Source of the DNA: Campylobacteraceae bacterium
Lineage (GTDB): Bacteria; Campylobacterota; Campylobacteria; Campylobacterales; Sulfurovaceae
Reading direction: 5' to 3'
Assembly: GCA_027035765.1 (NCBI GenBank)
Contig: JALVUD010000044.1
Location: 62,001 to 126,000 of the forward strand
Length of the DNA stretch: 64,000 bases
Part shown: in pieces, positions 43,424-50,643 of the stretch
Layout of the letters: each line of letters begins with the position of its first letter
How positions within the stretch are numbered: the stretch's first letter is position 1
Made by a program: the position numbers and the translations under genes
The notes under the pieces: model-generated
Seen by the model: the letters and a program-made list of their open reading frames with translations, nothing else
Told to the model about the DNA's origin: nothing
The model's database searches: none

Positions 43424-43467
43424 TAGATTTTATGATGGGAATTGAAAATCAGACAAAGGAGTCAAAA

Positions 43468-44193
43468 ATGAAAAATCGACTGTCACTCATCATCCTGACG
43501 ATCCTCGGTACCTGGAGCCTCCAGGCGGCAAACCTGGGCGGCACCTGGGTCAATGAAACATCTTCTCCCCGCGGTATCAGGCAGTTGACGATCTCGCCAC
43601 AGAGTCATACGATCCGGGTGCTCCGACGCTGCCGCCGGGGGCTCTGTGACTGGGGCAGCGTCAACTACACTTCCACTTCACGCGGCCTCCTGGCGAGCTG
43701 GTCCCGTCCGCGTGCCTACCGAGTGATCCTGGCCGAAAGAGTGGGAGCCCGTCGGCTGAGGGTCATCGTAAAACGCCTCCCGTATTTCAGAGGCGGCGTA
43801 CGTACCCGGATCCTCTATTTCAGAAAAGCGGGAAATCCCTATCCTCGACAGCGCCGGTTTCAGGCGTTTACGGGTCGATGGGTCCCCCTGGGGTACTTCC
43901 ATCGGCGGAGCCTGAGGCGTCTGCGAATCTCGATGGAGGGAGGCATGCCCAGAGTTCGGGCCGAAGGACGCTGCCATCACGGCCTCTGTGAATGGGGAAG
44001 TTCCCGCGTCGAATACCGACACGGGAGAATGGTTGTCTACTGGTATCAAAGGGGTATCGAGCGGATGGCCACCTTCCGGGGTTTCGGCCGGGATCGCCAC
44101 GGTCATTACCGTCGCCTGAAAGCGGAGATCCTGACCCGTCTGCCGCGCGGCAGGGAGTTTCGGGAAGTACTCTACTTGACTCGGGAGCGATGA
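43468..44193 (+). CDS. Secreted protein with two tandem CxxGLCxWG-type domains
   Basis: 241 residues from ATG 43468 (AAAGGAG upstream). Signal peptide residues 1-20. Two homologous units: GTWVN...CRRGLCDWGSVNY (residues about 25-120) and GRWVP...CHHGLCEWGSSRV (about 130-238), each ending in a strand like RTRILYFRKA or FREVLYLTRE. The C-x3-LC-x-WG motif with one disulfide per unit recurs. Very arginine-rich (high pI), suggesting binding to a polyanion such as nucleic acid or LPS (inference). Family not recognised. Confidence 0.78.
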   Translation: MKNRLSLIILTILGTWSLQAANLGGTWVNETSSPRGIRQLTISPQSHTIRVLRRCRRGLCDWGSVNYTSTSRGLLASWSRPRAYRVILAERVGARRLRVIVKRLPYFRGGVRTRILYFRKAGNPYPRQRRFQAFTGRWVPLGYFHRRSLRRLRISMEGGMPRVRAEGRCHHGLCEWGSSRVEYRHGRMVVYWYQRGIERMATFRGFGRDRHGHYRRLKAEILTRLPRGREFREVLYLTRER

Positions 44194-47077: not shown

Positions 47078-47208
47078 GTGGCTGTCCTGATCGGATGATG
47101 TAGTCGTGGATTATATCCAAAAAGAGGTTTGGCGAGGTTTGGGATTTCGAATAACGATGCAAGAGAGGCAAAGCCAAGAGGCAAGAGGATGGCAGAGAAA
47201 AGACCGCC

Positions 47209-47946
47209 TCACGGCATACCGGCAGGCAGATAGGGAATGGGCGGCATGACTTTGGCGGAGCGGCGGGCCCGTTCATCGATCCGGGGGACCGGACCGCCGT
47301 GTCCGTAAGCAACCAGATGCGGTGTTCCCGAAGGATCTCCTACCAAACCGAAAGGAACCTCGACACTGACAATAATGCTGCCGCCGGTCGTATGATCGAT
47401 AATCTTCGCTCCGTTGACGATTTGCCCCCCATCGAGGCGATACCCGGTCACGGGAAGCACTTCGGTTTCATGGGAGCAATCGAGTGTTTCGTCGATCGAA
47501 GCCGGTGTCAGAATGACACTCAGCGGCTGCATCCGTGCCTATGCCAACTGCAAGATCGGCCCGTCGATCCGCATCAAGCCCCCGCCCGGTCCGCCCCGGA
47601 CATAGAGCAGGCGGGGGTCGAGGGTGCGCATCGTCACGGGGCCGATAGGGGTCTGGAACTGTTTGTCGACGATTGTGTACCAGACCTGCGCCACCGGCAT
47701 TTTCGACCCGGCAAATTCGATCCCGTACAATGCTCCGTCGGGCGTCTTGTCTTTTCCCAGATACAAGGCAACAGTCCCGTCGTTGTAGCGTGCCCAGGCC
47801 CCTACGGGGAGTCGTTCGAAACTTTGGGTGACGATCCGGTTTTGCAGATCGAGCAGCTTTTTGGCCTCCTTTTTGCACCGTGCCTGCGACCAGCCCGCCG
47901 AGAGTGAAGCGATCAAGACAAAGGTCAACAGTACGATACGTTTCAT
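47209..47946 (-). pseudogene. Exported protein interrupted by an in-frame amber codon
   Basis: Codons from ATG 47946 run 135 residues (signal peptide MKRIVLLTFVLIASLSAGWS, then a mature domain ending MRIDGPILQLA), stop at TAG 47541-47539, and continue in the same frame for a further 109 residues (SVILTPASIDETLDCSHETE, VSVEVPFGLVGDPSG) to 47209. The downstream ATG 47532 has no ribosome-binding site, so this is best read as one 245-residue gene with a single nonsense codon, a base error, or a programmed readthrough site. Third gene after the OmpA-like and 338-residue genes. Family unknown. Confidence 0.7.
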
Positions 47947-47958
47947 TTTTTTCTCCTT

Positions 47959-48975
47959 TTATTTCACGAATTCGATATGAGGGCAGCGGTTGCTATCAAA
48001 ATCCAGTCTCGCACTCATGGAGAGGGCATGCCAGCCGGGCTTGGCGATCTCTTGAACCCGTCGCGGCGAGGGGGGGCTGATCGTGATGGCGGATTCGCAA
48101 CCGCGGGGTACATAAAAGACCTCCTTGTACACTGCTGCCAATCGCCCGATCGTCTTGAGATCAGCTTTCGTCAAACCCAACAGATAGCCCTCTTTTTGCA
48201 ACATACGAAGCAGTTCCACCATTTTTTTACCGATCTTTTTGGGAGGCGGAAGCATGCGGTGATTTTCATAATAGACCTCGAATTCACTGCGTCCCTCTCC
48301 GAAATCTTCGGGAAAGCGGGCGCCAGGGAGCACCTTGTTCAAGAGGGTGTTGATGCGATGGAGTGCCTCTTTCGCCTCGTCGACCGTACGAAACCCGCCG
48401 GGAGATCCTATCTCCGCATCCAAAGTGATAAAATAAGGCGCATCCCACCGCAACGTCCATCCGGGAGCGTCGGGATTTTTACACCACTCCAATGCATCTT
48501 TCGATCCGTTTCTCATTTTTTGCGATGTATTGCCCCGCTCCTTCCCGCTCTTTCCCTCCTCGTCGTCGCAACACTCCTCGTCCTGGCAGATCACCTTGGC
48601 TACGAACTCCCGATCGAGTTTGATATACAACTTCTCATCGGCAGGGTTTTTTCCCTCTTTGAGGCACTGGTGAAACCGATCCCAGCTCTTCACACATGAT
48701 TTTTCCTTGAACCAGGGGCGCAGATCGACGGCGGTGCCGATTTTGTCGACGACTTGTTTGAGTGGGAAACGGAACGTAACCCTTTTCCCCGCCGCTTCGA
48801 TGCTTTCTGCCCCAAACTCTTTGGCGGCTTTTTCGAGCCGTGCCGAAGGAACCGCTTTTAGAACGACACCTTTTTTATTCAGTATCACCAATGCCATGGG
48901 AGTGAGCGGCATGCAGGCAAAAAGGGCACTGCCGACCGCCGCCGTCAACAAAAAAGCGATAGAGATCCGTTTCAT
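47959..48975 (-). CDS. Exported protein of unknown function in the OmpA-like operon
   Basis: 338 residues from ATG 48975, overlapping the previous stop (ATGA). Signal peptide MKRISIAFLLTAAVGSALFA with a Cys that could be lipidated (LFACMPL). The mature part has clustered cysteines (CQDEECCDDEE), a charged low-complexity linker, and a helical C-terminal half (LRMLQKEGYLLGLTKADLKT). I recognise no family. Twelve bases before the amber-broken gene; all three genes encode exported proteins. Confidence 0.75.
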   Translation of the reverse strand: MKRISIAFLLTAAVGSALFACMPLTPMALVILNKKGVVLKAVPSARLEKAAKEFGAESIEAAGKRVTFRFPLKQVVDKIGTAVDLRPWFKEKSCVKSWDRFHQCLKEGKNPADEKLYIKLDREFVAKVICQDEECCDDEEGKSGKERGNTSQKMRNGSKDALEWCKNPDAPGWTLRWDAPYFITLDAEIGSPGGFRTVDEAKEALHRINTLLNKVLPGARFPEDFGEGRSEFEVYYENHRMLPPPKKIGKKMVELLRMLQKEGYLLGLTKADLKTIGRLAAVYKEVFYVPRGCESAITISPPSPRRVQEIAKPGWHALSMSARLDFDSNRCPHIEFVK

Positions 48976-50042
48976 TTGATGAGCCGGATCTCCACGCGGC
49001 GGTTTTTGGCCCGGCCCTCCTCGGTGGCGTTGTCGGCGATGGGATCGGCTTTGCCCCGACCGACGATTTTGAAGCGTTCCGCCGGCACCTTGCCGCAATC
49101 CATCAGATAGTCGGCCACCGACTGGGCCCTTTGCAGGGAGAGTTTGAAGTTATACGCGTCGGTGCCGATATTGTCGGTGTATCCGGTGACGACGATCTTT
49201 TGGGCCGGATGGGTGCGGATGTAGCGGGCCACCGCGTCCAGGGCCTTCCGCGCTTCGGGTTTGAGGGTGAATTTGTTGAAATCGAAAAGGACTTTCTCCG
49301 GTACCGTCAGCTTGGACCCTTCAGCGGTCTTCTCCACCCGTATGCCCAGTTGCTCAGGGGTCGGCTTGGCCTCCTGCGTGGTGTATTTGGCGATCTTGAT
49401 GTCAGAGAGCAAGGTATCGTATGGTTTAGGGGAAAGTGAGAATCGACGACGTCCCCAGGCAAATCCGATAATCGGTTTATCGATTTTGAAAGGGATGGAA
49501 GCGATTCTTTCACCGTTTCTATAGACACGAAGCTGATGGCGCCTTGCCTGAATAGCGATATGAAAAGGTTTGTTATGACAGGCTTTGCTGTCACGTAATC
49601 CTCCGACCCCGCTCAAAGAAATATGGCATCCCATCGGTTCAAAGTACATTTCCAATGTTTTCCATGCTTTTACACGGGGTTTGATCGGATCTTCCAGATA
49701 GAGATCGAAGAAAAACTTGACATCTCTGTATTTGTAAGGAATCACAGTAAAATCTATCGAAAAATCATCGGTACCTACCTCTTCTTTCCGGATGAGACGG
49801 AATCCGTTTGTGTTGCTTGGAGCTACCCAGATATGGTCATTATATTTGACGCACTCCACCACCCCCTCGATCTTGTCGAAGCCTTCCGGGATCTCCCCTA
49901 CCGGACAGTTGCGGAAATCGGCCGTCCAGAGGACTTTGTCCCCCGGCTGATAGCCCCGGGAGACACCGGTTACCAGACCGCCCGCAGATAGAGAAAACAA
50001 AAATGCCAGAATCAAAACGAAGAGCCGTTTGACCTCACTCAT
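48972..50042 (-). CDS. OmpA-family protein with N-terminal lectin-like domain
   Basis: 356 residues. Signal peptide (LFVLILAFLFSLSAGG), no lipobox. Residues about 35-225 resemble a concanavalin/LamG-type beta-sandwich (VLWTADFRNCPVGEIPEGFD, FHIAIQARRHQLRVYRNGER); residues about 240-355 are a peptidoglycan-binding OmpA domain (VLFDFNKFTLKPEARKALDA, VVTGYTDNIGTDAYNFKLSL, AKNRRVEIRLIK). Probably anchors to the cell wall and presents a sugar- or surface-binding domain. First gene of an accessory operon between ileS and gatA. Confidence 0.85.
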   Translation of the reverse strand: MSEVKRLFVLILAFLFSLSAGGLVTGVSRGYQPGDKVLWTADFRNCPVGEIPEGFDKIEGVVECVKYNDHIWVAPSNTNGFRLIRKEEVGTDDFSIDFTVIPYKYRDVKFFFDLYLEDPIKPRVKAWKTLEMYFEPMGCHISLSGVGGLRDSKACHNKPFHIAIQARRHQLRVYRNGERIASIPFKIDKPIIGFAWGRRRFSLSPKPYDTLLSDIKIAKYTTQEAKPTPEQLGIRVEKTAEGSKLTVPEKVLFDFNKFTLKPEARKALDAVARYIRTHPAQKIVVTGYTDNIGTDAYNFKLSLQRAQSVADYLMDCGKVPAERFKIVGRGKADPIADNATEEGRAKNRRVEIRLIK

Positions 50043-50220
50043 TATCTTTTCCTCCTTTTCTTTGGCTATTCTTTAGTTATATATCTATTATAACAAATGA
50101 AGTTTTCTTCTCGAGAACAGCGGCTATATTCTCCTAATACCCTTAAAAGGAGTGGGAGAATGATTTTGGGGTATGATTAGCTTTATGAAACCGATCAGAG
50201 GATCGATGAAGGATAAGAAG

Positions 50221-50643
50221 ATGAACAAAACAACGATCAGGATTACAGCCCTTTCGCTCATCGCCGGTGCGGGGTTGCTCTGGGCCCGCCCCATCAGCGC
50301 CCCTCTGGCAGTCTTCGAATCGACCAAACTGCCTCATCGTACGCTCAAAGAGGGTCCCAGTATCTTCGGTACGCTCCCCTTCTTCAACGAAGCCAACGCC
50401 ACCCCCGAAGAGAAAGCACAGTACAAAAAGATGGTCCAGGAGCTTAAACAGCGGGAGAAAGAGAATGAGAAATATCGCCACAGCAAGGCGATGCAGGTCT
50501 TCGAATCGACCAAGATCCATCGCGATCCCAAGGCCGGCCCCAGTCCGGTACGCAAAATGTTCTCAGAAGTCTTCTCTGCCGTCGGTCTGGGATCGGAGAG
50601 TTCCGATACATCAGAGAAGAAAAAGCCTGAAGAGAAAAAGTAA
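50221..50643 (+). CDS. Small secreted protein with VFESTK repeats
   Basis: 140 residues from ATG 50221. Signal peptide (ITALSLIAGAGLLWARP). Two copies of A-x-x-VFESTK (residues about 31-38 and 90-96), each followed by a basic patch and a G-P-S motif (KEGPSIFG, KAGPSPVRKMF), joined by a Lys/Glu helical linker. Ends with Lys/Glu-rich KKKPEEKK. No homologue recognised. The leader contains ATTCTCC..GGGAGAAT (50129-50163). Divergent from the OmpA-like operon. Confidence 0.7.
   Translation: MNKTTIRITALSLIAGAGLLWARPISAPLAVFESTKLPHRTLKEGPSIFGTLPFFNEANATPEEKAQYKKMVQELKQREKENEKYRHSKAMQVFESTKIHRDPKAGPSPVRKMFSEVFSAVGLGSESSDTSEKKKPEEKK

Follow-up and report, generated by a model that had tools for sequence, protein, structure and literature searches.

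The TAG codon that interrupts the third gene of a three-gene envelope cassette probably reflects a recent nonsense mutation in an accessory locus, which we regard as the best explanation of the interruption. The window in which it lies is a stretch of 64,000 nucleotides (G000:C44:62001–126000) from a 2.03 Mb genome in 47 contigs, with a completeness of 99.89% and a contamination of 0.13%. According to this explanation, gene 3 would be the last gene of an operon encoding an OmpA-domain protein, a lipoprotein-like protein and a probably periplasmic protein with a LolA/RseB fold, and would have recently gained one nonsense codon in this genome. Ribosomes would halt after residue 135 of 245, leaving a chain with the signal peptide, one helix and roughly half the predicted sheet. 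With the half-barrel cut in two, misfolding and degradation of the product are expected. The cassette appears to be accessory in the genus and would tolerate such a loss. A genuine stop in the organism, an inactive product and a recent date for the mutation are all inferences. The relevant features of the window are as follows.

48972–50042, minus strand: gene 1, whose product has a C-terminal OmpA domain; the gene 1 stop and the gene 2 start overlap (ATGA)
47959–48975, minus strand: gene 2, lipoprotein-like, with a FAC lipobox recognized by eye; located beside gene 3 in 5 of the 5 genus genomes bearing gene 3
47209–47946, minus strand: gene 3, the whole frame, 245 codons with the internal stop counted, followed by the terminal stop (sequence, homologue alignment and structure model; signal peptide by eye)
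47542–47946, minus strand: the part of gene 3 before the stop, 135 residues, with a signal-peptide-like start and, as predicted, a long helix, strands one to six and the greater part of the second helix (translation and model of an intact homologue; signal peptide by eye)
47539–47541, minus strand: codon 136, the premature TAG; no stop occupies this position in the relatives found (sequence and alignment)
47212–47538, minus strand: the part of gene 3 after the stop, with the remaining predicted strands and the conserved VPFG motif (alignment and homologue model)

The interrupted frame and its homologues

Translation of the minus strand from 47946 to 47209 yields 135 residues, the TAG, 109 further residues and a terminal TGA. 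The first-pass annotation had described a single in-frame TAG at 47541–47539, the reading through of which gives one continuous 245-residue frame, and both points are borne out. The codon is present in the window sequence and in the whole-genome copy at G000:C44, which is the only match to gene 3 in the genome, and the continuity of the frame is confirmed by translation and by the homologue alignment. The post-stop residues align with the relatives along their full length, with whole-protein identities of 92, 77, 45 and 36%, and there are invariant residues before as well as after the stop. The alignment and these invariant residues indicate that the post-stop part is more than a chance open frame. 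Coding statistics alone are too weak to prove that it is coding. From composition, 109 codons would stay open by chance with a probability of approximately 0.016; the post-stop part has a low codon-usage score (0.076, versus a gene mean of 0.316 and a gene minimum of 0.062), and one of its antisense frames scores nearly as high (0.032). An antisense ORF on the plus strand (47299–47907) overlaps gene 3 and is taken as a shadow ORF. The start of gene 3 is preceded by AGGAG, located 6 bases upstream of the ATG. The first ATG past the TAG is found at 47532, 6 bases beyond the stop, and has no clear Shine–Dalgarno sequence by eye, in agreement with the earlier claim that the second part has no ribosome-binding site. 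The missing site alone does not exclude a second product, since ribosomes terminating at the TAG could restart at 47532.

All nine full-length homologous loci encode one uninterrupted protein of 236–248 residues, with one locus (L012) open to the contig end. They derive from four other genomes of the genus, from one genome of the order and from MAG contigs under the labels Acidobacteria and Aminicenantes, for which binning errors are possible. Within the genus, each of the four other copies forms one ORF, with lengths of 245, 242, 248 and 238 residues. A scan of genome_contigs gave seven loci, three of which repeat genus copies. The four further loci comprise a 236-residue ORF, open to the contig end, on one Acidobacteria-labelled contig and uninterrupted ORFs of 242–243 residues on three contigs labelled Candidatus Aminicenantes. 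In G220, a 237-residue gene 3 ORF lies downstream of an ORF resembling gene 2 by eye. Duplicates were merged in these counts (L010 with L002 of G006, L011 with L003 of G008, and L013 with L005 of G010), as were L006–L009, L085 and L086, which repeat earlier loci. The comparison of homologue lengths, proposed as a check in the first-pass annotation, thus supports a single frame: among the nine full-length homologues, none consists of two proteins broken at the same place. A naturally split two-protein gene was rejected, since the full-length homologues are all single chains.

The distribution of gene 3 is narrow. It occurs in 5 of the 13 genomes of the genus, the window's included, in 5 of the 175 genomes of the family, which are the same five, and in 8 of the 397 genomes of a phylum sample, six of which are new and belong without exception to a single further family of the order. 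The phylum sample also gave six partial matches with no stop inside the matched part; they were counted separately, as the profile spans only part of each, and one of them, L088, is a single ORF of 238 residues. The stop is present in one of the five genus copies and inside none of the other homologues found. Carriage by a virus was rejected, as one scan of viral_contigs with A4 gave no relative.

Decoding of TAG, selection and competing explanations

A search with RF00005 found 40 tRNA genes in the genome, all of which were read by ARAGORN. None of the 40 has a CTA anticodon, so the suppressor tRNA for which a search had been suggested does not appear among them. tRNA-Ile(GAT) and tRNA-Ala(TGC) are missing from the list, indicating that the assembly or the search is short of a few genes; these two were probably lost with an unassembled rRNA operon. 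The genome encodes release factor 1: the prfA model scores 534 bits against a cut-off of 423 and is covered nearly whole, while a second match to this model, at 304 bits and below the cut-off, is probably RF2. In a set of 47 window genes hand-picked from its ORF lists, the terminator is TGA in 27, TAA in 12 and TAG in 8. A code with TAG recoded was rejected in view of the presence of RF1, the use of TAG as a terminator and the lack of a CTA tRNA among those found.

Between the window copy and its nearest relative, L002, dN/dS is 0.099 for codons 1–135 and 0.194 for codons 137–245. The two copies differ at nine amino acids after the stop (two window-derived, two relative-derived and five unpolarized) and at ten before it (eight window-derived and two unpolarized), and these polarized counts are small numbers. 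The neutral expectation is approximately 25 changes on the window branch after the stop, as estimated from half of a dS of 0.22 and about 245 nonsynonymous sites. The post-stop part therefore still seems to be constrained, which implies a young stop, one that is not truly null, or a consensus error. This argument is not clean, because the window copy was already changing faster before the stop, a pattern that argues against a plain scenario in which release follows the stop. Belinky et al. 2021 (PMC7918605) report that bacterial genes with in-frame stops often retain dN/dS values below 1 and that such stops tend to last only a short evolutionary time, and functional readthrough would likewise leave constraint past the stop (PMC7918605).

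The alternatives differ in how they account for these data. An error in the sequence or consensus, or an allele of a minority strain taken into the assembly while the gene is intact in most cells, is the main, though less likely, competitor. The same picture, with a stop in one assembly alone followed by sequence that looks constrained, would be expected from such a fault in an assembly of 47 contigs. However, the completeness and contamination values are those of a good assembly, though they are not proof for the base concerned, and the TAG differs at more than one base from the codon common to L002, L003 and L004, so that a single miscalled base is not the whole explanation. Programmed or tolerated readthrough, yielding some full-length protein, is considered improbable. 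It would be compatible with one continuous frame showing low dN/dS on both sides of the stop, and with the frequent dN/dS below 1 at bacterial in-frame stops reported by Belinky et al. (PMC7918605). Against it stand the 40 tRNA genes found, none with a CTA anticodon, the RF1 score of 534 bits versus a cut-off of 423, the sharing of the stop by 0 of the 9 full-length homologues, and the 8 of 47 window genes ended by TAG. Fainter still is the prospect that the stop serves as a regulated brake, with low-level UAG readthrough or reinitiation producing a little full-length or two-piece envelope protein. If that were true, the lineage would have made a periplasmic protein of the LolA/RseB fold one that is rarely produced.

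Translation from the second start at 47532, by which the C-terminal part would be made as a separate chain, is very unlikely. This in-frame ATG is just beyond the stop and near enough for reinitiation in principle, but the same Met is present in the intact L002, L003 and L004 and so did not arise for this purpose. Moreover, of the two chains only the first would carry a signal peptide, both halves supply strands to one domain in the predicted structure, and none of the nine full-length homologues is split. The least likely of the alternatives is phase-variable or reversible switching through the stop codon. The envelope is a usual target of switching, gene 3 is an envelope gene, and the cassette is a mosaic in which the break of L003 falls close to the stop. 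Nevertheless, direct or inverted repeats of at least 12 bases are absent within 47100–48100, the only tandem match inside gene 3 (47694–47725, 2.2 copies with a low score) is about 150 bases from the stop, and no relative with gene 3 in an off state was found. Among the options that the first-pass annotation had left side by side, recent inactivation is best supported, by the nine uninterrupted homologues and the constraint visible past the stop, whereas readthrough is disfavoured by the lack of a suppressor tRNA among the 40 found, the presence of RF1 and a stop that is not shared, and phase-like variation gains no positive support from the sequence near the stop.

The three-gene cassette

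Genes 1–3 appear to form one operon, in which gene 3 starts 12 bases past the stop of gene 2. The OmpA domain of gene 1 is matched by Pfam with an E-value of 6e-29. Gene 2 is found in 5 of the 13 genomes of the genus, the same five as gene 3, with the frameshifted gene 2 of G006 counted. A match to gene 1 adjoins genes 2 and 3 in all five genus genomes with gene 3, covering near the whole length in four and residues 38–356 in G008, where it lies at a contig end; the other eight genomes have at most an OmpA domain, located elsewhere. Because gene 3 occurs in only five of the 13 genomes and gene 2 in the same five, the cassette is dispensable, or accessory, within the genus. Downstream, gatA (recognized by eye) is present in G008 and G011, and none is found within the stretch seen in G010. 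On the three Aminicenantes-labelled contigs, an OmpA-type gene is situated directly upstream of gene 3 with no gene 2 between them (L014:4652–6666, L015:4566–6729 and L016:259–2284). The Pfam scan of L014 and L015 revealed OmpA and PA14 domains in this upstream gene, and that of L016 was judged by its likeness to L015.

Several further observations concern the cassette and its surroundings. In the nearest relative (L002 of G006), gene 2 (L002:884–1875, on the same contig as L010) lacks one base that its homologues have and is consequently divided into two frames; the break in the cassette thus lies in gene 2 in this sister genome and in gene 3 in the window. This frameshift agrees with weak selection on the cassette, but a fault in the assembly of that MAG would be another possible cause. 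A comparison of window positions 47209–48975 with L002 and L003 in windows of 90 columns revealed a mosaic, with identities of about 80–99% from the last third of gene 2 to gene 3 codon ~120–135. Beyond this point, near the stop, L003 shows about 54–69% identity to the other two, while the window and L002 remain near 90%. This pattern suggests recombination between diverged alleles. The lipobox-like FAC of gene 2 lies within window positions 48975–48910; by eye, its Cys is also present in L004, L005 and L087, while L002 and L003 have FAW, and gene 2 lipidation may therefore be lost in these two. Two ORFs on the plus strand (43432–44193 and 50173–50643) have signal-peptide-like starts and no Pfam match above the cut-off.

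Predicted fold and comparison with known systems

An intact homologue was modelled with AlphaFold2, using alignment A6, the seven rows of which are the proteins of L010–L016, without L004, G220 and the window copy. The model, with a pLDDT of 78.5 and a pTM of 0.75, comprises an N-terminal helix (residues 2–44, including the signal peptide), strands within residues 51–128, a helix (129–138), a low-confidence loop (140–154) and strands within residues 161–215. The stop falls near the end of the helix 129–138, so that the product would keep about half of the predicted sheet, and VPFG, the longest motif that is invariant after the stop, would be missing from it. The top VIA-align match is RseB (3m4w_A), with a Z-score of 9.2, which is only modestly higher than the best values of 7 to 8 typical in the absence of a clear match, and an rmsd of 3.5 over 153 aligned residues at 7% identity. 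It is followed by MucB, a chlamydial hypothetical protein and LolA-type chains with Z-scores of about 5 to 7, spanning approximately residues 29–236. The Foldseek E-values are weak, the best being 0.053 for an OSBP chain, with MucB (0.14) and RseB (0.16) at ranks 3 and 4. A scan of nine family members gave no match above the cut-off to Pfam or NCBIfam models, including those of LolA type, and solved chains gave no sequence match at E-values up to 1. On the strength of the model, the gene 3 family is likely, but not proven, to be a LolA/RseB-like half-barrel.

The stop itself looks ordinary, like another recent null allele or an assembly error rather than a new decoding trick. The by-product of this analysis is the family of intact gene 3 proteins, which are secreted, are predicted to form a LolA/RseB-like half-barrel and have no Pfam or NCBIfam match above the cut-off. 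The gene follows an OmpA-domain gene on the Aminicenantes-labelled contigs, and OmpA-domain and lipoprotein-like genes in the group of the window genome, here called the Nitratifractor group, and it is patchily distributed in the genus.

Two known systems offer points of comparison. In contrast to the periplasmic half-barrels LolA, LolB and RseB (MucB), the gene 3 family has no sequence match to Pfam or NCBIfam families above the cut-off or to solved chains; nevertheless, the model of the intact homologue aligns over residues 29–236 to RseB and LolA chains, the match to RseB covering only the first part of that protein (chain residues 25–212). As for the recent nonsense pseudogenes and in-frame stops of bacterial genomes discussed by Belinky et al. 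2021 (PMC7918605), their large-scale analysis centred on stops in orthologues of at least two species, whereas the stop in gene 3 occurs in one genome. In other respects the resemblance is close: gene 3 likewise has a single stop, an intact remainder, a post-stop dN/dS below 1 and an apparently short life.
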